From IMG/VR virus record IMGVR_UViG_3300037264_005984, positions 1 to 34,312 of that record: DNA of 34,312 nucleotides. One strand, given 5' to 3'. Both the position numbers and the translations under genes were made by a program. The stretch is from a virus. Below, in pieces: positions 2,562 through 26,179 of the stretch (its first letter is position 1; the number at the start of each line of letters is the position of its first letter). A model generated the notes under the pieces. It searched no databases and was not told the origin of the DNA. It saw nothing but the letters and a program-made list of their open reading frames with translations.

Positions 2562-2654
2562 GAGGTCCCGCAGAACACCCCAAAAAACAGACGACTATAT
2601 TCCCGCTTGACGGGGTACAGCCTAGAGGCTATATTTTGGGTGTAGGTTTGCTCT

Positions 2655-2685
2655 TTGACAACTTGAGACGGCACTGGTCGATAAG
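2655..2685 (+). promoter_or_regulatory. Possible promoter for the early leader
   Basis: A consensus -35 TTGACA at 2655-2660 is followed 19 bases later by GATAAG (2680-2685), a poor -10. If used, transcription would start near 2692 and run about 360 bases before the ribozyme cleavage site. The weak -10 and long spacing limit confidence; a phage factor could assist. Confidence 0.3.
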
Positions 2686-3050
2686 GCGATATACGGCCCT
2701 AGAAAATACGGTAGCCACAGTTCAACCGCGAGGTTCAACTCCTACCCGAAGCCAACAGGCACCGAACGCAGACCGGTCCCCCAGAACGTGATGCACTTCT
2801 TGCACACGGTGGGAAAGCAACCAAGATCCACTCCGCAGCAGATACGCTACCGGACCCATACCCAACCTACCGCAGGATGACGCGGGGGACTGTTCGCCCG
2901 GAAGGGCAGCCTAAGCGAAAGCACAGAGCACACACAGCAACAGTCTCGTCCAGGAAGCACGAGGTGCGACGGCACCTGGAGTGGATCGCCAAGACAGTGC
3001 TGCGTCACGAGGATCGGGAACGATGCCTCACGCAGTGAACAATACTGTCC

Positions 3051-3098
3051 GGGTCACGTGGCATTCGTAGCCACGTCTGATGAGTCACGACGAAACCC
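3051..3098 (+). ncRNA. Hammerhead ribozyme, type III
   Basis: All core elements are present in order. GGGT (3051-3054) is the 5' strand of stem III, followed by C3055 of the GUC cleavage triplet. Stem I is ACGTGGC/GCCACGT (3056-3062 with 3070-3076, 7 bp, loop ATTCGTA). The invariant CTGATGA is at 3077-3083, stem II GTC/GAC with a 2-base loop at 3084-3091, the invariant GAAA at 3092-3095, and CCC at 3096-3098 closes stem III (A3095-T3054 plus three G-C pairs). Predicted self-cleavage is between 3055 and 3056. It lies 18 bases before the first early start codon and 5 bases before its ribosome binding site, so cleavage would set the mRNA 5' end. Stem II is unusually short but all catalytic residues match the consensus. 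Confidence 0.88.
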
Positions 3099-3116
3099 AT
3101 TCCAAGGAGCAAGACG

Positions 3117-3302
3117 ATGAGTAAGAAACTGTCCGACGCGAAGCGCGGCGACAAGATCGAAGTGCGAACATGGTTCGGAGAAATCCAGTCCGGGACCATT
3201 GCGGGGTTTGGTGAGAAAGATGGCGAGCCAGTCATCGACTACAAGACGGCCACTGGCGGAGGCCAATGGTGCTACGCAGAACAAGTTCTTTCTGTCCGCT
3301 GA
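3117..3302 (+). CDS. Small early protein of unknown function
   Basis: 61 residues with a predicted small beta-barrel character: KRGDKIEVRTWFGEIQSGTI then EPVIDYKTA and GGGQWCYAEQVLSV. The alternating hydrophobic pattern resembles SH3/KOW-like or Tudor-like folds, but this is not a family assignment. The start is fixed by AAGGAG at 3104-3109 directly after the hammerhead ribozyme, making it the first gene of the early transcript. The same leader pattern (GAGGAGCAAGAC) precedes the next two genes. Confidence 0.75.
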   Translation: MSKKLSDAKRGDKIEVRTWFGEIQSGTIAGFGEKDGEPVIDYKTATGGGQWCYAEQVLSVR

Positions 3303-3331
3303 GACGAAACCCGAAACGAGGAGCAAGACCA

Positions 3332-4117
3332 ATGACCACGACGAATGAAATCAGTGTCGGTTGCAGGATGATCTTCGTGCCCAGCAGCACCAAGCAGTAC
3401 CGGGCATGCGTGGTGTCGAAGACCACGAAGGCCACGTTCACCGTTCGCTTCGACGACGAGACGGTCGCCGGACCGTTTGCGAAGGTCCTGAGTTGGGGAC
3501 CGGGAACGCAGGGCCACGAGCTGTACAAGTGCCCGCGATATTCTGGCAAGGACCAACGCGTGTACATCGACACCCCGGAGGTGCGAGCTGAGATGGATGC
3601 ACGCCGCATCGAATTGCTTGAGCGTGAGACGGCGCTCATGAGCTCCACTTCGAGGTACGTGACAGTCTTCTTCCCTATCGTAGTCGAACGACCTTCTTCC
3701 AAGCAAGCCGAGCGTGCCAAGCAGCGGAACGAACGCGAGATCGAGATCGCCAAGCAGTTGGCCGAGGTGAAGGAAGCGATGCTGGCTCACGACAATTTGT
3801 TCTGCCTCGGAAGCCACGTGGAACTCATGCCGGACGGCACTCGGTTCTACGTCGTGAACATGCCCGTGCATCTGGCGTACGTGGATCGCAAGGGTGGGTG
3901 GGAAAAGCTGATCGTGGTCTGTAGGGACGTCGAAGACTACGATTGGGATTCTCCTCGTGACAAGGGAGAAGAGCGCAAGAAGATCCGCAAGGTGGAATCG
4001 GCCTACACCTACACGAACGCGTCATCCCATTCTTTCTCGTCCGTCAGCACTTCGAAGTACGACAACGACGAGTCGGCCGTGTGGGACGCCATTCGCCATC
4101 AGTATCACAGTTGGTAG
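3332..4117 (+). CDS. Hypothetical early protein
   Basis: 261 residues, not recognised. The N-terminus (SVGCRMIFVPSSTKQYRACVVSKTTKATFTVRFDDE) looks like a small beta domain resembling that of the preceding 61-residue protein. The middle, around residues 80-150, is rich in E, R, K and A and is probably helical or coiled (QAERAKQRNEREIEIAKQ). Then come a beta-rich stretch and a Ser/Thr/Tyr-rich tail (SSHSFSSVSTSKYD). ATG 3332 is chosen for GAGGAG 13 bases upstream and the leader shared with its neighbours; the frame is open further back without a start of that quality. Confidence 0.7.
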   Translation: MTTTNEISVGCRMIFVPSSTKQYRACVVSKTTKATFTVRFDDETVAGPFAKVLSWGPGTQGHELYKCPRYSGKDQRVYIDTPEVRAEMDARRIELLERETALMSSTSRYVTVFFPIVVERPSSKQAERAKQRNEREIEIAKQLAEVKEAMLAHDNLFCLGSHVELMPDGTRFYVVNMPVHLAYVDRKGGWEKLIVVCRDVEDYDWDSPRDKGEERKKIRKVESAYTYTNASSHSFSSVSTSKYDNDESAVWDAIRHQYHSW

Positions 4118-4540: not shown

Positions 4541-4828
4541 ATGAAGAAGAAAGTTGCACCGAGATTCGAGTCAGTAACCGACGGCAATCTTGACGATGGC
4601 GCACCACGGCACGCCGACGATGTTCCGCTCAGACCGCTTCGTAAGTGTCGTTGCCGAGAACCCAAGCAGCATCCCGACTGCACCCTGTGCGGCAAGGGCA
4701 TCTTGAAAGACGAGCCCGTTCGCTGCGACATGATTGGCATCGTCCACAACAAGTGCTACAAGGAATTCGAACAGGGCCAAGCACAGATGCGAGACGCCAG
4801 CATCAACCACGAGGGTCCGATTGGTTGA
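4541..4828 (+). CDS. Small zinc-binding protein
   Basis: 95 residues. The centre holds a Cys/His cluster: CRC, then HPDC, TLCGKG, VRCD and VHNKCY, i.e. several Cys pairs and two His spaced like a LIM- or treble-clef-type zinc site. The N- and C-termini are polar and likely disordered. The ribosome binding site AAAGGAA lies 10 bases before the ATG. A role in protein-protein or nucleic acid contacts is possible, but no family is recognised. Confidence 0.65.
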   Translation: MKKKVAPRFESVTDGNLDDGAPRHADDVPLRPLRKCRCREPKQHPDCTLCGKGILKDEPVRCDMIGIVHNKCYKEFEQGQAQMRDASINHEGPIG

Positions 4829-4952: not shown

Positions 4953-6437
4953 ATGAATACGATTGAACAATTGAAGCATGCACGACGAGCCGGGGTACCC
5001 TTGGTGGCGATCGGAACTCCGGATGCGGCCGCGACGGTGCAAGCCGTGGCGAAAGAAATCAACTCGTCCCCGATCATCATGTGGGACGTGCAACGCGGGG
5101 TCATGCCCGTGAACGAAGCCGGGCAAGACGCGATGGGATTCATCCAGGCGGACAACACCGTGGGCAACCCGCTGGGCATGCTCGACGAGGCTGCGAAGTT
5201 GCCGGAGCGCACCATGCTCTTCGTGCACAACGCCGCGAAGGTTGCCGAGGCAGCCGGACTGCCCTGGATCCAGGGCGTGTGGAACCTGCGGGACCAGTTC
5301 AAGCAAGACCGGCGAACCTTGATCCTGTTGGGTCGGGATTCTGTGGTGCCGGCCGAACTGGAGGGAGACGTGGTGACCCTCGACGAGGAACTGCCTGGCA
5401 AGGAAGAACTGGAAGCAATCGTACGGTCGCTGGACGAGGCTGCTTGCAAATCTGTCTCCGATCGGCCGAAGGCGAAGGAAAGTACGATTGGCCGTGCGGT
5501 CGAAGCAATTCAGGGACTCGCAGCCTTTCCGGCGGAACAGGCAGTGGCCATGTCCGTGAGGGCGACTGGCTTCGACCTCGACCACCTGTGGGAGGTGAAG
5601 CGGTCCATGATCGAAGACACTCCGGGACTCAGTTGTTGGAGGGGCGGGGAGAAGTTCGACGACATCGGCGGACTGGAAAACGCCAAGCAGTATTGCTCGC
5701 AGTTGATCCAGGGCCGCAAACGATACGGTGCAGTGGTCTTCATCGACGAGATCGAGAAGTTGATGGCGGGAAGCACTGGGTCAGACACGAGCGGTGTCAG
5801 CCAAGGATTCCTTCAAGTTCTGTTGACCTACATGCAGGATCACAACGTGAGCGGAATGATCTTCGTGGGTCACCCGGGTGCTGGCAAGAGTATGCTCGGC
5901 AAGGCACTGGGCTCCGAGGCCGGAGTGCCGACCATCGCCCTCGACACCAACGCGATGAAGTCCTCGCTGGTTGGATCGAGCGAGCAGCGAATCCGCTCCG
6001 CGATGAAAGTGATCACAGCGGTGAGCAACGATCGCCCACTGTTCGTAGCAACGTGCAACGCCATCGCGAACCTGCCACCTGAGTTGCGACGGCGGTTCAC
6101 AGCAGGCACGTTCTTCTTCGACTTGCCCACTGAGGACGAACGTCAGGTCATCTGGGACCACTACATCAAGCAGTACAATTTGGAAGAGGATTCCGACGCA
6201 GACTTGCCAGACGACAAGGATTGGACGGGTGCTGAAATTCGTTCTTGCTGCCAGGGTGCGTGGGAGCGAAAAGTGTCTTTGGTTAATGCGGCACAGTTCG
6301 TGGTGCCAGTTGCGAAGGCAGACCCCGAGCGGATCGAACGCCTGCGTAAGGAAGCAGCCGGTCGGTACATCTCGGCCAGTGAATTCGGAACGTACAAGAT
6401 TCCTGAGAAAGCGAAGGCTGGAAGGAAATTGGGATGA
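4953..6437 (+). CDS. Ycf46-like AAA+ ATPase with permuted Walker motifs
   Basis: 494 residues. Residues 1-160 resemble the degenerate N-terminal ATPase-like domain of Ycf46-type proteins (IIMWDVQRGV, RTLILLGRDSVVPAEL, DEELPGKEEL). The active AAA+ domain starts at FDDIGGLENAK (235-245). Walker B, VVFIDEIEK, comes first (261-269), whereas Walker A, GHPGAGKS, comes after it (306-313). Then follow sensor 1 (ATCN, 366-369) and Arg-finger region PPELRRRF (375-382), with FFFDLPTEDERQVIW in normal order. All catalytic residues are present, so it should hydrolyse ATP as a ring remodeller. The DUF1257- and DUF2997-like genes downstream are the usual companions of Ycf46-like ATPases. The motif order is in the DNA itself: no frameshift or stop is seen. 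Confidence 0.85.
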   Translation: MNTIEQLKHARRAGVPLVAIGTPDAAATVQAVAKEINSSPIIMWDVQRGVMPVNEAGQDAMGFIQADNTVGNPLGMLDEAAKLPERTMLFVHNAAKVAEAAGLPWIQGVWNLRDQFKQDRRTLILLGRDSVVPAELEGDVVTLDEELPGKEELEAIVRSLDEAACKSVSDRPKAKESTIGRAVEAIQGLAAFPAEQAVAMSVRATGFDLDHLWEVKRSMIEDTPGLSCWRGGEKFDDIGGLENAKQYCSQLIQGRKRYGAVVFIDEIEKLMAGSTGSDTSGVSQGFLQVLLTYMQDHNVSGMIFVGHPGAGKSMLGKALGSEAGVPTIALDTNAMKSSLVGSSEQRIRSAMKVITAVSNDRPLFVATCNAIANLPPELRRRFTAGTFFFDLPTEDERQVIWDHYIKQYNLEEDSDADLPDDKDWTGAEIRSCCQGAWERKVSLVNAAQFVVPVAKADPERIERLRKEAAGRYISASEFGTYKIPEKAKAGRKLG

Positions 6438-14603: not shown

Positions 14604-15218
14604 ATGAGTAGTGTTACGATCACGCGGCGAGATGCAGTGGCCCTGTGTGTTGGACTTGGTTTCAAGACGGCAGCCAAGTGGGACAAGCAACGGATGATCA
14701 TCAAGCTGCAGGAACTGGCTACGATGGTTGCGGACGGGGGCATTGCGGTGCCGGAGGACGCGGAGAATGCGGAGAAGCTGAACAAGACCCTCGCGAAGGT
14801 TGCCAAGTCCAAGGGCGACGTCGAAATCGTCTCGGGAGAAGAGAAAGAGGAGCAGCCCGTTGCGGCCAAGCCGGAGAAGAAGGCCAAGCCGGAGAAGAAG
14901 GCCAAGCCGGAGCCTGAGGCTGACGATGAAGAGGAAGAGGAGGCTGGGGACGAGGATGAAGGGGACGAGGACGAGAAGGTGCCGGCGAGAGCCAAGCCGG
15001 AGAAGAAGGCGAAGGGCGCAGTCGCTCGCGATGCGTTTTCCAATCGTGTCGGGTCCCAGGCTGCCACGATCAATGCAGTGCTCGGGAAGAAGGGGAAGAC
15101 CCGCAAGCAGATTTGTGAGGAGACCGGCCTCGGTCTTGCTCGCATCGCCGGCCATATCAAGTTCTTGGTCGACAAGGGATTCGTCAAGGTCGACGACGAC
15201 AAGATCGTTGTTGTGTGA
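14604..15218 (+). CDS. Winged-helix protein with charged repeat linker
   Basis: 204 residues. A helical N-terminal part (ITRRDAVALCVGLGFKTAAKWDKQRMIIKLQELA) is followed by a long low-complexity linker with AKPEKKAKPEKKAKPE and a Glu/Asp run. The C-terminal winged helix has INAVLGKKGKTRKQICEETGLGLARIAGHIKFLVDKGFVKV. It resembles small DNA-binding regulators with a histone H1-like tail. ATG 14604 has the correct 7-base spacing to AGGAG (14592-14596); ATG 14598 is too close. As the first gene of the operon behind the palindromic promoter, it could autoregulate it. The similar Lys/Pro/Glu style of the SSB tail is noted. Confidence 0.65.
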   Translation: MSSVTITRRDAVALCVGLGFKTAAKWDKQRMIIKLQELATMVADGGIAVPEDAENAEKLNKTLAKVAKSKGDVEIVSGEEKEEQPVAAKPEKKAKPEKKAKPEPEADDEEEEEAGDEDEGDEDEKVPARAKPEKKAKGAVARDAFSNRVGSQAATINAVLGKKGKTRKQICEETGLGLARIAGHIKFLVDKGFVKVDDDKIVVV

Positions 15219-15283
15219 TGTGTGGTTGTTGTTTGAATCGGGGAGGCGCTCGGTGTCACCCCGAGAGGGCAAGGAGAAAACTG

Positions 15284-15718
15284 ATGCCTACAATCACTCG
15301 CAAGTTGGAATGGGACTCGGGTCATCGAGTTCTTGGGCACGAAGGGAAGTGCCGGAACCTTCATGGTCATCGCTACGTCGCAGAGGTGACTGTCTGGTCA
15401 GCTGGTCTCGATCATGTGGGACGGGTCATCGACTTCGGTCTCGTCAAGAAGATCATCGGAGGCTGGATCGACGAGAACTGGGATCACAACATGTTGCTGA
15501 ACAGCAATGATCCGTTGGCTCTCGAGGATGACGAAGCGAGGTTGTGCCTTGTGGGGAGGGAGCCTTTCTTGATGCCGAAGGAGAGCAATCCGACGGCTGA
15601 GGTCATGGTGGAAGTGCTGTTCAAGACAGCGGAGATTCTTCTGCCTCAGTACCTGGTAGTGAAGAAGGTGCGGTTGTACGAGACCCCCAACTGCTACGCG
15701 GAGTACCCAAGCGAATGA
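15284..15718 (+). CDS. queD: 6-carboxytetrahydropterin synthase (QueD)
   Basis: 144 residues. Zinc ligands of the T-fold family are visible: SGHRV (H14) and LHGHRY (H27, H29). The catalytic Cys lies in GKCRNLHGH (C23), followed by DFGLVKKII and WDHNMLL. The terminal YETPNCYAEYP carries the substrate-anchoring Glu region. QueD converts dihydroneopterin triphosphate to 6-carboxytetrahydropterin, the second step to preQ0. AAGGAG lies 8 bases before ATG 15284, whereas the open frame from 15215 gives a meaningless extension. The next gene, QueE, overlaps by ATGA. Confidence 0.92.
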   Translation: MPTITRKLEWDSGHRVLGHEGKCRNLHGHRYVAEVTVWSAGLDHVGRVIDFGLVKKIIGGWIDENWDHNMLLNSNDPLALEDDEARLCLVGREPFLMPKESNPTAEVMVEVLFKTAEILLPQYLVVKKVRLYETPNCYAEYPSE

Positions 15719-16395
15719 ACAACCAAAAAGCAGAAGGGGCTGCCTTCGTCCTGGAACTCGATGTCATTGACATCTGGAATACGATTCAAGGGGAGGGTCC
15801 ATTTGCAGGGACGCCGGCAGTCTTCATCAGACTTGCTGGGTGTACTCTCCAGTGTCCTGGTTGTGATACCAACTACACTTGTGGTCGGAGGCTGTGGACG
15901 GTAGAGGAGGTTGTCCGCAAGGTCTGGCATGTACGAGGAACTTCTGACTTGGTGGTCATCACAGGCGGCGAGCCTCTGAGGCAGTCGGCATGCCTCCAGT
16001 TGTTCCACAGTCTCTCGGCACGAGAGATTCAGTTGGAGACGAATGGGGTGTCTTGTCCTTTCACTATCCCTTGGTTTGTGACAACTGTTTGTTCCCCAAA
16101 GACAACCAAGATCAGTCCGGATGTGGAGGCAGCGGTTTTGAATTGCGGAGCGTACAAGTACGTAGTGGAGTCTGGGTACACTGCGGACGAGGATGGGCTG
16201 CCCCTGCGTGTGTTGGGGAAGGATTGCCATGTAGCACGACCTCCTAGAGGTTTCCGTACGGACAAGATTTTCATCCAACCAATGGACAACGGGGATGTCT
16301 CTGATCGTGCAAACCTCACAGAGGCAGTCAGGGTGTGTAGGAAGTTTGGATACCGTTTGTGTCTGCAGGTTCACAAGATAGTGGGGTTGGCATGA
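15715..16395 (+). CDS. queE: 7-carboxy-7-deazaguanine synthase (QueE)
   Basis: 226 residues. A radical SAM cluster motif CTLQCPGC (C43, C47, C50, CxxxCxxC as in short QueE variants) follows DIWNTIQGEGPFAGTPAVFIRLAG, the QueE-specific opening. VVITGGEPLRQ is the radical SAM GGE motif, and IQLETNGV and VTTVCSPKT complete it. It rearranges 6-carboxytetrahydropterin to 7-carboxy-7-deazaguanine (CDG). It overlaps queD and the FolE fusion gene by ATGA on both sides, so the three form a coupled pathway unit. All catalytic residues look intact. Confidence 0.93.
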   Translation: MNNQKAEGAAFVLELDVIDIWNTIQGEGPFAGTPAVFIRLAGCTLQCPGCDTNYTCGRRLWTVEEVVRKVWHVRGTSDLVVITGGEPLRQSACLQLFHSLSAREIQLETNGVSCPFTIPWFVTTVCSPKTTKISPDVEAAVLNCGAYKYVVESGYTADEDGLPLRVLGKDCHVARPPRGFRTDKIFIQPMDNGDVSDRANLTEAVRVCRKFGYRLCLQVHKIVGLA

Positions 16396-17273
16396 ATGAA
16401 GTACAATTGACTTGGGGCGATGTCGGGTTGTTGGCCATCAAGGTAGCTTGTCAGCTGCCGTCGGACAGGGAGTCGTGTATCTACCCGATCCCAAGAGCTG
16501 GGGTCTTCGCTGCTCTGATGGTTCAGTCGGCAGCGTCTCTTCAGAAGAAGTTCGTGCATCTGGTCGACACTCCACAGGAGGCTACAGCGTACGTCGATGA
16601 TATCATCGACAGCGGGAACACAAGGTTGCGTACGTGCCGGGTGCATGGGGAGAAGCCCTTCTTCGCTCTGTACGAGAAAGTGAGTCCTGGGTGGGTACAC
16701 TTCCCGTGGGACAATGCGATGGGGGATACCGGTCCGGAAGAGAATGTGCGACGGCTCCTCCAGTACATCGGGGACGACCCTACTCGTGAAGGGTTGGCGG
16801 AGACTCCCGCGAGGGTGGTTCGCTCTTACGCAGAGCTGTTCAGTGGCTACTCTGTTGATCCTGGTTCTGTTATCAAGACGTTCAAGGAGGACTCATGCGA
16901 TGAAATGGTAGTGGTGAAGGACGTGGAGTTCTATTCTACATGTGAGCACCACATGCTGCCGTTCTTTGGCAAGGCTCACATTGCCTACATCCCGAATGGT
17001 CGGGTAGTGGGTGTGTCGAAGTTGGTGCGGCTGTTGGAAGTGTTTGCTCGTCGACTCCAAATCCAGGAGCGGTTGTGTGAGCAGGTGACTGCAGCATTGG
17101 ACACGAGCCTCCAGCCCAAGGGATCGGCTTGTGTGTTGGAAGCGAAGCACTTGTGCATGACTGGACGCGGAGTCGGCAAGCAACACTCGGTAATGGTTAC
17201 TTCGAGCTTGACTGGGGTGTTCAAGGATTCCAGCAGCCAAGCTCGGCAGGAATTTCTTTCAATGGTGAGGTGA
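16392..17273 (+). CDS. folE: Phosphoribosyltransferase-GTP cyclohydrolase I fusion
   Basis: 293 residues in two domains. Residues 1-110 look like a type I phosphoribosyltransferase: YPIPRAGVFAAL, the PRPP motif VDDIIDSGNT (68-77), and WVHFPWD near its end. Residues 114-293 are a full GTP cyclohydrolase I: ENVRRLLQYIGDDPTREGLAETPARVV, zinc ligands in STCEHHMLPF (C184 and its His) and HLCMTGRG (C255), plus GVSKLVRL and QERLCEQV. The FolE part makes dihydroneopterin triphosphate from GTP, feeding QueD. The phosphoribosyltransferase part could recycle a purine or 7-deazapurine base to a nucleotide; that is inference. It starts at ATG 16392 by ATGA overlap with queE. Confidence 0.88.
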   Translation: MNEVQLTWGDVGLLAIKVACQLPSDRESCIYPIPRAGVFAALMVQSAASLQKKFVHLVDTPQEATAYVDDIIDSGNTRLRTCRVHGEKPFFALYEKVSPGWVHFPWDNAMGDTGPEENVRRLLQYIGDDPTREGLAETPARVVRSYAELFSGYSVDPGSVIKTFKEDSCDEMVVVKDVEFYSTCEHHMLPFFGKAHIAYIPNGRVVGVSKLVRLLEVFARRLQIQERLCEQVTAALDTSLQPKGSACVLEAKHLCMTGRGVGKQHSVMVTSSLTGVFKDSSSQARQEFLSMVR

Positions 17274-22651: not shown

Positions 22652-23656
22652 ATGAAAGTGGATCGCAAGTTGTTGCTGAAGGAATTGGAGACAGCCTCCG
22701 CAGGGTTGTCGAAGAGAGTGATCATTGAGCAGGGTGGCTGCTTCGTTTTCAAGGCAGGGGAGGTGTTCACGTTCAACGATGAAGTGGCTGTCAGAACAGC
22801 TTGTACGTTGAAGATCGAGGGTGCTGTTCAAGCGAAGCCCTTGTTGGAACTCCTCCAGAAGATGTCCGAGGACGAGTTGGACATCAGTGTTGTCGAGTCT
22901 GGCTTGCAGGTCAAGGGCAAGGGACGGCGGGGCACGATCCACATGGAGGAGAAAGTGCTGTTGCCGGTCGAAGGCATCGAGGATCCTGGAGAGTGGGGAC
23001 CAATTCCGAAGGGTCTCCTGGCTGCCATGAAAGTAGTGGCGTCGTGTTGCAGTACCGACGAATCACGTTTCGTGTTGACCTGCGTTCACGTTGCCACAGA
23101 TTGTGTGGAGGCCTCTGATGATTTCCAGATGATCCGGTACCCACTCAAAACCAAGATCAAGAAGTCGGCGCTTCTCGTCAAGGACTCGGTGGAGAAGTTG
23201 ACGTCCGTCGATACAACGGAATGGAGTGAGAGTGAGAACTGGTTGCATTTCAGGAACGCTGCTGGGTCGGTGTTGTGCTGCAGGAGGTATGCGGAAACCT
23301 ACCCAGACTTTGGAAATCACTTGGAGGTGGAAGGGCACGAAGTATCGTTCCCGAAGATCCTTGACAAGGCTCTCGACAAGGCTCAGATATTTTCAGCTGA
23401 GGATCCGATCGAAAATAAAGTCACTGTCAGTCTGTCTCCGGGACGGTTGCGGTTGGAGGGTAAGGGTCCGTTGGGCAGCTACCGCGAGCAGAAGAAGATC
23501 GAGTACGACGGGATCGAGCTGTCGTTTCTCATTGAGCCAAGGTTGCTGTTGGAGATCGCTGCCAAGTCGGACAAGTGTGTTGTTGGGAAGACACGGATCA
23601 AGGTGGACACTGGGAAGTTCGTCTACGTCTCCGTCACAACTGCGATCAAGGAATGA
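22652..23656 (+). CDS. DNA polymerase sliding clamp (beta-type)
   Basis: 334 residues, near the length of bacterial DnaN (about 366). The opening MKVDRKLLLKELETASAGLSKR and the repeated domain pattern fit: KPLLELLQKMSEDELDISV, EEKVLLPVEGIEDPGEWGPIPKGLLAAMKVVASCCSTDESRFVLTCVHV, and in domain 2-3 ASDDFQMIRY (equivalent to the 'DxxRL' loop), RRYAETYPDF and FLIEPRLLLEIAAK. The clamp encircles DNA and tethers the polymerase encoded two genes on. GAAGGAG precedes the ATG, and a terminator-like guide hairpin lies just upstream. It overlaps the next gene by ATGA. Confidence 0.85.
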   Translation: MKVDRKLLLKELETASAGLSKRVIIEQGGCFVFKAGEVFTFNDEVAVRTACTLKIEGAVQAKPLLELLQKMSEDELDISVVESGLQVKGKGRRGTIHMEEKVLLPVEGIEDPGEWGPIPKGLLAAMKVVASCCSTDESRFVLTCVHVATDCVEASDDFQMIRYPLKTKIKKSALLVKDSVEKLTSVDTTEWSESENWLHFRNAAGSVLCCRRYAETYPDFGNHLEVEGHEVSFPKILDKALDKAQIFSAEDPIENKVTVSLSPGRLRLEGKGPLGSYREQKKIEYDGIELSFLIEPRLLLEIAAKSDKCVVGKTRIKVDTGKFVYVSVTTAIKE

Positions 23657-24867
23657 CCATGGGCTTCTTCACAGCAGAGGAAATAGGTCAACGGAGAGTA
23701 GTCGCAGGCAACCCGCGGTGTGGTGCCTGTGGACTGAGCAAAGGGTGTCGTACCCCCAAGATCCCATTGGCAGGGGAAGGGGGCAAGGGCATCCTTGTAG
23801 TTGGGGAGGCGCCTGGTGCCGAAGAGGACAGACACGGGAAGCCGTTCATTGGCGAGTCAGGGCAGTTGTTGCAGAAGGCTTTGAAAGCGAACGGCATCAA
23901 CTTCTTTCGTGACTGCTGGGTAACCAACACAGTGGTTTGTCGGCCGCCTGAGAACAGGGACCCAACTTCCGATGAGTTGGAGAACTGCTTGCCCAATCTA
24001 CTCAAGGTAATCCAAGACACGAACCCACGTGTCATCTTGTTGGCAGGCAGGTTTGCGATTGCTCAGGTGATTGGGCAATCGTGGACTGCTAGTGTTGGTT
24101 CTGGGATGCGTTGGCTTGGGTATCAGATCCCGAACATGAAATGGAATGCTTGGTTGTGCCCTGTCTACCATCCAGCCTACATCCAACGTAAGTTGAAAGG
24201 GGACGAAGTCGAAGGGTTGCTCTGGAGGAAGCATTTGAAGGCGATGTCTGAGTTGTACGGCAGGCCGTGGCCAGGAGGTCTTCCGGAGTATGGGAAGCGG
24301 ATACGATGCTTGTATGATTCGCGACAAGCGGCTGCGGCTGTCGAGGATTACATTCGTTGGGGAGCGCCAGTGGCTTTTGATTATGAGTGTGATCGATTGA
24401 AGCCAGATCACGAGGATGCTCAGATTGTCAGTTGCTCTGTGAGCGATGGGGAGTATGCGATCTCCTATCCGTGGGTAGGAGAAGCTGTTGAGGCAACCAA
24501 GAGACTGTTGTGGTCCACTGTTCCCAAGATGGGTTGGAACATCAAATTCGAGGAGCGTTGGACGCGAAGGGTGTTTGGCAAGGGTGTCCGTAATTGGTTG
24601 TGGGATGGGATGCAGGCCACCCACGTGTTGGACAACAGGCAGGATATCAACAGCTTGAAGTTCCAAGCGTTTGTGCAACTGGGTGTCAGCAGTTACAACA
24701 TGAAGATGGCTCCCTTCCTGCGGGCTGATTCGAGTAATGAGAAGAATCGGATCAGGGAAGCTCCTCTCGGAGAATTGTTGTACTACGGCGGCATGGATTC
24801 TCTTTGTACTGCATTGATAGGACAGCGACAAATAGAAAGGATACGTGGTGAAGGCAACAACCGCTGA
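23653..24867 (+). CDS. Family 4 uracil-DNA glycosylase / 3'-5' exonuclease fusion
   Basis: 404 residues. Residues 15-215 are a family 4 (iron-sulfur) uracil-DNA glycosylase: CGAC (C23, C26), GILVVGEAPGAEEDRHGKPFIGESGQLL (motif I), TNTVVCRPPENRDP with C96, C112 and VYHPAYI. Residues 250-404 are a DnaQ/Pol I-type 3'-5' exonuclease: VAFDYECD (Exo I, D and E), MGWNIKFEERW (Exo II) and YYGGMDSLCT (Exo III Y-x-x-x-D). It removes uracil and proofreads for the polymerase encoded next, whose own sequence lacks an exonuclease domain. The reading frames overlap slightly. ATG 23653 overlaps the clamp stop; ATG 23659 is an alternative. Confidence 0.88.
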   Translation: MTMGFFTAEEIGQRRVVAGNPRCGACGLSKGCRTPKIPLAGEGGKGILVVGEAPGAEEDRHGKPFIGESGQLLQKALKANGINFFRDCWVTNTVVCRPPENRDPTSDELENCLPNLLKVIQDTNPRVILLAGRFAIAQVIGQSWTASVGSGMRWLGYQIPNMKWNAWLCPVYHPAYIQRKLKGDEVEGLLWRKHLKAMSELYGRPWPGGLPEYGKRIRCLYDSRQAAAAVEDYIRWGAPVAFDYECDRLKPDHEDAQIVSCSVSDGEYAISYPWVGEAVEATKRLLWSTVPKMGWNIKFEERWTRRVFGKGVRNWLWDGMQATHVLDNRQDINSLKFQAFVQLGVSSYNMKMAPFLRADSSNEKNRIREAPLGELLYYGGMDSLCTALIGQRQIERIRGEGNNR

Positions 24868-26179
24868 TGCGTACAGTCTCTTCCATGATGGTGCCCTTGC
24901 TCTGGCTCGTGTTGAAGCAGCGGGTATGCGGATCGACGTCAAGCGATTGGACGCGATGATTGAGAGGGCAGGGATTCGTATCAAGGAACTGGCAGAGGAG
25001 TTGAAGGAGTCTGCGGAGTGGGAAGTTTGGAAGAAGCGATTCAGAAGTAAGGCTTCACTTGGAAGTCGTACTCAGTTGGGAGTAGTGTTGTTCGAGGAGT
25101 TGGGTTGCAAGGTAGGTACGAGGACAGCATCGGGTCGGGCACAAGTGAACGAGGAGCAGTTAGAAAAGTTGGACGTGCCGTTCGTTCACAAGTACCTCCA
25201 AGCGGAGAAAATGAAGAAGCTGCAAGGCACGTACTTGAAAGGCATTTGGAGGGAAGTGGTAGACGGGTTCATTCATCCGTCGTTCAATTTGCATCTGGCA
25301 CGCACGTACCGTTCCAGCTCCGACTCACCTAACTTCCAGAACATCCCCATTCGTGACCCGAAGATAGGCAAGGTCATTCGTTCGTGCTTCATTCCGCGGG
25401 ACGGTCACGTCTTGGTGGAGATTGATTACGGAGCCCTTGAGTTTCGTGTGTGTGCTTGCTTCTGGCGAGACAAGGCGATGGTGGCCTACGCAAGTGACCC
25501 AGCGCTTGATGTCCATCGAGACATGGCATCCGAGTGCTACGCGATTCCCATTGAGGAGGTGTCCAAGCAAGCAAGGTTCTTCGCCAAGAACAATTTCGTT
25601 TTCCCTACACTGTACGGTAGCTATTACAAGAATACTTCGCAGCACCTGTGGGCTGTGATGGACACACACCAGTTGGTGACAAACTCCGGTCAGCCGTTGG
25701 AGGAGTGTTTGAAAGCGAACAGCATCACGAAGAGGAATTACGAAGAGCACATCCAAGGTGTCGAAAGGAAGTTCCAGGGGAGGTTCCCTGAGTGGACACA
25801 ACGAAAGGAAGTGTGGTGGAAGAAATACTTGAAGTCAGGCGAGTTCCGTTTGATGACAGGCTTCTTGGTTGAAGGTGCCTACAGTCGAAACAATCTGATG
25901 AACTATCCGATCCAAGGCCCAGCGTTTCATATCTTGTTGTGGAGTCTGATTCAGTTGGTCAAGTGGACTGCAGGCAAGCGCACAAAGATCGTCGGGCAGA
26001 TCCATGACTCGATTGTGGCTGACGTGCATCGGGATGAGTTGGATGAGTACCTGGCGGCAGCCAAGCAAGTGATGACAGTTGATGTGCGTAAGCATTGGGA
26101 TTGGATTGTAACTCCGTTGGAGATCGAAGCGGAGGTGGCAGAGGACAATTGGTTCAACAAGAAAGTGGTGGCAGTATGA
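24848..26179 (+). CDS. Family A DNA polymerase, polymerase domain
   Basis: About 443 residues covering thumb, palm and fingers. Motif A is VLVEIDYGALEFRVCA (DYSQIELR type), the fingers motif B is ARFFAKNNFVFPTLYGSYY (R-K-F-YG), and motif C is VGQIHDSIVADV with the catalytic HD. RTYRSSSDSPNFQNIPIRD is the usual RLSSSDPNLQNIP segment. No 5'-3' or 3'-5' exonuclease domain is present; the proofreading domain is supplied by the upstream gene, so together they form a split Pol I. The start is GTG at 24845 or 24848; the latter has better spacing to AAAGG at 24836. It overlaps the clamp loader by ATGA. Confidence 0.92.
   Translation: MKATTADAYSLFHDGALALARVEAAGMRIDVKRLDAMIERAGIRIKELAEELKESAEWEVWKKRFRSKASLGSRTQLGVVLFEELGCKVGTRTASGRAQVNEEQLEKLDVPFVHKYLQAEKMKKLQGTYLKGIWREVVDGFIHPSFNLHLARTYRSSSDSPNFQNIPIRDPKIGKVIRSCFIPRDGHVLVEIDYGALEFRVCACFWRDKAMVAYASDPALDVHRDMASECYAIPIEEVSKQARFFAKNNFVFPTLYGSYYKNTSQHLWAVMDTHQLVTNSGQPLEECLKANSITKRNYEEHIQGVERKFQGRFPEWTQRKEVWWKKYLKSGEFRLMTGFLVEGAYSRNNLMNYPIQGPAFHILLWSLIQLVKWTAGKRTKIVGQIHDSIVADVHRDELDEYLAAAKQVMTVDVRKHWDWIVTPLEIEAEVAEDNWFNKKVVAV

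Follow-up and report, generated by a model that had tools for sequence, protein, structure and literature searches.

We found a type III hammerhead ribozyme at positions 3051-3098 in the early region of a phage, and we consider it fairly probable that this is a working, pseudoknotted ribozyme that follows a structured, boxA-headed leader, precedes the first early gene with its ribosome binding site, and sheds this leader. This reading was built on sequence comparison and structure prediction. The window, that is, the whole stretch of DNA that was analysed, is the 34,312 nt of IMG/VR virus record IMGVR_UViG_3300037264_005984 (positions 1 to 34,312), which belongs to a virus of bacteria. All features of the early region given below are on the plus strand.

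The ribozyme and its sister group

By its sequence, 3051-3098 is a genuine type III hammerhead. The RNA reads GGGU C/ACGUGGC AUUCGUA GCCACGU CUGAUGA GUCACGAC GAA ACCC, where the slash marks the predicted cut. Three stems surround the core, stem III being open and stems I and II being closed by loops, which is the type III topology. Stem III is formed by GGGU and ACCC (3051-3054 with 3095-3098, 4 bp). The stem I hairpin (3056-3062 with 3070-3076, 7 bp) carries the 7-nt loop AUUCGUA at 3063-3069 and is supported by covariation in 21 sequences. The core consists of CUGAUGA (3077-3083) and GAA (3092-3094), with A15.1 at 3095. All invariant residues, read at 3054-3055, 3077-3084 and 3091-3095, are present, namely C3 U4 G5 A6 N7 G8 A9, G12 A13 A14, the pairs A15.1-U16.1 and G10.1-C11.1, and H17. 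Because H17 is C3055, after GUC, cleavage is predicted between 3055 and 3056, and this site, already proposed in the earlier note, is backed by both the sequence and the homology to the hammerhead core.

A bare core of the CTGATGA..GAAA type should occur by chance roughly once in each window, so the stems are decisive. The window has a single such site, and it bears all three stems. The search of 10,000 random windows from a first-order Markov model, which keeps the dinucleotide composition, gave none with stems of at least 7/3/4 bp and 7 with stems of at least 4/3/4 bp. The Rfam model Hammerhead_3 (RF00008) aligned end to end with a score of 25.1 bits (E 0.0027; 301 nt searched with all families), which falls short of its gathering cutoff of 48.5 bits. 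At gathering score, RF00008 also found no match for sister sites in 16 loci. The tested members lie under the Rfam cutoffs, and annotation by those cutoffs would therefore miss them. A leave-one-out covariance model (R2), built from 20 sister sequences with the window omitted, gave the window ribozyme 65.9 bits (E 1.3e-18). With core, stems and topology all present, this score upholds the earlier description of a complete type III hammerhead. Model R2 found no second match in the 34-kb window, and the ribozyme is thus present there as a single copy. Two properties count against the main reading: stem III is just 4 bp long, and in an isolated fold of 3045-3105 an alternative structure was slightly preferred (−15.4 vs −13.3 kcal/mol, with the pseudoknot left out of the calculation).

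No exact or near copies of the ribozyme were found in viral contigs and phage records. A first degenerate scan of the viral contigs with CTGATGAG, a short stem II and CGAAAC revealed many contigs with hammerheads of several types. The second scan used CTGATGAG-N6-CGAAAC and required GTC 17-29 nt upstream. It yielded a sister group with a 7-bp stem I, a 7- or 8-nt loop I and 6 nt between G10.1 and C11.1. Several whole records have 2-3 copies of the ribozyme, spaced 300-1100 nt apart. A scan of 247 genomes from a single phylum gave two weak hits, which were dropped because inspection revealed no proper hammerhead stems.

The 20 sisters and the window ribozyme were aligned (A2, 21 sequences). Two-sided changes occurred in all 7 pairs of stem I, in 2 pairs of stem III, in 1 pair of stem II and in 2 pairs of the pseudoknot. 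Pairing in both stem I and stem III had been a condition for choosing the members, which inflates the paired fraction there, and for these two stems only the variety of the pairs is evidence. The loop-loop pairing played no part in the selection. This comparison shows that the ribozyme belongs to a covarying, phage-specific and pseudoknot-stabilised hammerhead group.

The alignment also changed the picture of stem II, which the earlier note had drawn as 3 bp with a 2-base loop and called unusually small. The third pair is formed in 5/21 sequences, and the 3-bp form was dropped on these counts. The second pair is formed in 15/21 and covaries (UA in 7, AU in 5 and UG in 3 of 21). Stem II is accordingly given as G3084-C3091 and U3085-A3090 (3084-3091) with the 4-nt loop CACG at 3086-3089. 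The small size was a misreading, since loop II is engaged instead in a pseudoknot with loop I. CGU of loop I (3066-3068) in the window would pair with ACG (3087-3089) as C3066-G3089, G3067-C3088 and U3068-A3087, while the fourth position, A3069/C3086, is mismatched. The corresponding alignment columns 22-46, 23-45 and 24-44 showed 8, 0 and 3 two-sided changes, respectively, and 23-45 was G-C in 19/21. A 4-bp pseudoknot using U3065-A3090 was dropped, since the covariation of column 47 is with column 42, in stem II. What these sequences support is a stem II of 2 bp and a pseudoknot between its 4-nt loop and loop I.

Position, leader and relatives

The Shine-Dalgarno sequence AAGGAG (3104-3109) begins 5 nt past the ribozyme, and the distance from the ribozyme end to the ATG is 18 nt. 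The first early gene (3117-3302) encodes a 61-aa protein, for which no Pfam or PHROGs match was found. We investigated this position among the sites with enough sequence. At 15 of the 20, window included, the ribozyme ends 8-25 nt 5' of an open-frame start preceded by a Shine-Dalgarno sequence, against a background of 10% for random positions on the same contigs (binomial 7e-12, an overstated value as some sites are close kin). The first downstream proteins are small and dissimilar from phage to phage. Thus, one conserved gene cannot account for the placement. Recurrent placement just 5' of a start codon is therefore shown by comparison of the sequences. The same recurrence, together with a distant relative described below, agrees with the earlier proposal that the cut would part the first ribosome binding site from the RNA upstream of it.

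A 27-nt pre-Shine-Dalgarno repeat precedes both gene 1 and gene 2. The copy before gene 2, at 3303-3329, is 81% identical to 3089-3115, bears GACGAAACCC and has no ribozyme. It may be a ribozyme remnant or merely a shared translation-start module.

Another type III group, with about 20 members, was seen in viral contigs. It has a 6-bp stem I, a loop I that is mostly UARRAGU and a loop II that is mostly CARRAG, and usually lies 1-37 nt 5' of a start codon, often after a GC-rich hairpin. Its loci include L153, L159, L183 (two copies), L187, L193, L198, L202 (two copies) and others. Four loci were tested against Rfam, and none gave a hammerhead match at gathering score.

Upstream of the ribozyme, a consensus scan located a sigma-70-like promoter, TTGACG-17-TATATT, at 2607-2635 (10/12 matches), which likely starts the early leader transcript; the end of its −10 element is 420 nt from the cleavage site. 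The location in an early 5' leader, as first proposed, is supported by these positions. Just past the promoter is the boxA-like element TGCTCTTTGACA (2649-2660), assigned by the boxA consensus. It is the sole match in the window and was matched in 0/100 shuffles. The distance from this element to the ribozyme is 407 nt in the window, 353 nt in locus L161 and 422 nt in locus L196.

The predicted 5' cleavage product is a structured leader RNA of 414 nt (2642-3055), its start being inferred from the promoter. Its fold has an energy of −154 kcal/mol with a z-score of −3.84, which was matched by 0/100 shuffles. The last 250 nt gave z-scores of −4.78 in the window and −4.26 in L161, and the minimum-energy fold has a hairpin near the 3' end, at 2993-3049. 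In many sisters a hairpin lies directly 5' of the ribozyme (mean z −1.1 and −1.7), and not all sister leaders fold better than chance.

The leader is probably noncoding. The element is followed by 390 nt without a convincing gene, and the leader has no plus-strand ORF of at least 60 aa. It does hold a 53-aa ATG frame (2877-3038), which has no clear Shine-Dalgarno sequence and no resemblance by eye to the frame in the L161 leader; coding through this frame keeps some probability. Scans of the leader for Rfam families and tRNAs found nothing besides the hammerhead, and no ligand-binding fold was recognised.

Relatives of the phage were sought with the AAA ATPase gene of the early region (4953-6437; Pfam AAA). 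In the L161/L238 phage, an AAA ATPase (40% identical, in L238, 3' of a sister ribozyme) and a DUF3150 protein (32%) are encoded downstream, and the order of boxA, leader, ribozyme and start is that of the window. The window and L161 agree at 90% of 29 nt in the boxA segment, whereas the leader outside this segment is barely conserved. In a distant relative, as judged by the two shared proteins, the ribozyme and the leader are thus kept in place. According to the earlier note, related phages without the core bases at this place would speak against the ribozyme. The single relative with a findable leader has the core. Two nearer relatives, both fragments, give no support: L005 has different genes upstream and no ribozyme was found in it, and L002 begins 3' of the leader. 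L003, matched by the 61-aa protein at 30% identity, is unrelated at the DNA level and was rejected. Tunturi_3 and the bacterial genomes that encode ATPase homologues yielded no ribozyme. Three further sister records have MoxR/CobS-like ATPases nearby, and a DNA helicase is encoded downstream in one record. The sister copies precede different genes inside phage operons.

Proposed role and alternatives

In the process that we favour, the early transcript would begin near 2642, and the ribozyme, once transcribed, would cut between C3055 and A3056. This would release a leader of about 414 nt with a stable hairpin and a 2',3'-cyclic phosphate at its end. The early mRNA would then carry a 5'-OH directly on the stem I hairpin and reach its start codon after about 60 nt. 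Going by E. coli biology, which may not be that of the host, a 5'-OH hairpin end should protect mRNA from 5'-end decay. Such an end would resist the RNase E/RppH-type decay that begins at a 5' phosphate, and cutting would also liberate the stem III strand beside the Shine-Dalgarno sequence. From these two effects, the chief benefit is probably a stable, leader-free early mRNA. The leader may act in antitermination, possibly via boxA, before it is shed, so that its task would be split from translation.

The alternatives mainly concern which product matters. It is less probable, though to be taken seriously, that the upstream product is the point, so that the cut makes the 3' end of a functional noncoding RNA of about 414 nt, for example in antitermination or host takeover, with the trimming of the mRNA as a side effect. 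The strong fold (z −3.84), the recurrence of a structured leader and boxA in L161, and the pre-ribozyme hairpin of many sisters, with its mean z-scores of −1.1 and −1.7, would all suit such an RNA. However, many sisters directly precede start codons, and second and third copies 300-1100 nt apart are a better fit to mRNA processing. Moreover, the leader beyond the boxA segment is barely conserved in L161 and some sister leaders fold no better than chance. An expression switch, in which the uncut stem III would hold the strand adjacent to the Shine-Dalgarno sequence and a cut, which the leader or a ligand might modulate, would license translation of the early genes, seems unlikely to us. The spacing of 5 nt to the Shine-Dalgarno sequence and 18 nt to the ATG, with similar values in the sisters, is what a switch would need, but the leader lacks a recognised ligand-binding fold, and fast, constitutive cutting is typical of natural type III hammerheads that have loop contacts (PMC6155905).

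The two remaining explanations concern the origin of the sequence, and both are very improbable. A chance or decayed look-alike would have taken GACGAAACCC from the repeated pre-Shine-Dalgarno segment and owe the remainder to coincidence. Although 3089-3115 does recur at 3303-3329 without a ribozyme, and the Rfam score is under the gathering cutoff, such an origin is hard to reconcile with the 0/10,000 random windows, the leave-one-out E of 1.3e-18, the intact core and the compensated loops. It is just as hard to credit a mobile or RNA-circle element, retrozyme or satellite-like, that carries hammerheads and was inserted into the leader by accident. The 2-3 copies in several records could be read in this way; however, the window has one copy, the repeat search revealed no flanking element repeats, and the sisters stand before different genes in phage operons.

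The favoured reading, a ribozyme that sheds the early leader, may extend beyond this phage. We suggest only tentatively, and rather doubt, that a "self-shedding early leader", composed of a promoter, a boxA-headed structured RNA of 350-500 nt and a hammerhead before the first start, is common to many unrelated-looking phages. If this is true, the leader would modify RNA polymerase before its removal by the ribozyme. The shed leader would be a functional noncoding RNA, or it would be discarded and leave an early mRNA capped by a 5'-OH hairpin. The place between the folded leader and the start codon is sharply defined, and the idea of mRNA processing can be tested with short constructs. About 20 covarying sisters and the second group of about 20 in a like position bear on the same question.

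Comparison with known systems and further observations

The kind of ribozyme is already known, and the recurring arrangement of leader, ribozyme and start is the notable part. The window ribozyme shares with Hammerhead_3 (RF00008) the topology, the invariant core, the GUC cleavage site and the closed stems I and II. Stem II, longer in the model, is 2 bp and pseudoknotted in the window. Perreault et al. (2011, PMC3088659) have described hammerheads with very short stem II and loop pseudoknots, many of them phage-linked. Phage-associated hammerheads, including pseudoknotted and very short stem II forms, cleave in vitro, and one triple hammerhead arrangement cleaves in E. coli too (PMC3088659). 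They can flank genes in clusters, and processing of long phage transcripts has been proposed (PMC3088659). The window group resembles those pseudoknotted forms in its 1-2 bp stem II, in the loop pairing that replaces the classical loop contacts, in the phage setting, in the clusters by genes and in the proposed transcript processing. It differs in its 7-bp stem I and its fixed place before the Shine-Dalgarno sequence, a comparison of descriptions rather than of sequence datasets, and the window and L161 add a boxA-headed structured leader upstream. In the literature searched, we found no description of a ribozyme group with this fixed place and a boxA-headed leader.

BoxA has a role in antitermination (PMC10250234). 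As in the boxA/Nus leaders (the rrn leader and lambda nut), the boxA-like TGCTCTTTGACA comes right after the promoter, a likeness of sequence. A boxA leader that ends in a ribozyme was not found in the literature searched. The theta (HDV-like) ribozymes of gut phages are likewise self-cleaving and concerned with phage RNA processing; they have another fold and are described as tied to tRNA-based recoding (PMC10879173) rather than to an early leader. In a 2017 review, what hammerheads do in prokaryotes was called an open question, and their phage link persistent (PMC6155905).

Other hammerhead types were also observed. Type I hammerheads are common to the large phage contigs L007, L015, L027, L030, L061, L070, L078 and L083. 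They have an AT-rich start, a 1-bp stem II and the loop ACUGGA or a similar one, e.g., TAAAATTCATACTGATGAGACTGGACGAAAC. The record L235, which also has a sister type III ribozyme, carries two type II hammerheads (RF02276) on the minus strand, at 3742-3803 and 4715-4779.

Elsewhere in the window, FkbM methyltransferase and DegT aminotransferase (surface sugar) genes adjoin an XRE-type regulator at 413-2024, just 5' of the early region. Genes for a 6-pyruvoyl-tetrahydropterin synthase (QueD-like), a radical SAM protein (QueE-like) and GTP cyclohydrolase I are consecutive at 15215-17273, which suggests 7-deazaguanine DNA modification. At 23575-26179, a uracil-DNA-glycosylase domain is fused to a 3'-5' exonuclease domain, and a gene of its own encodes the family A DNA polymerase that comes next; the replication polymerase is split, and the UDG fusion is unusual.
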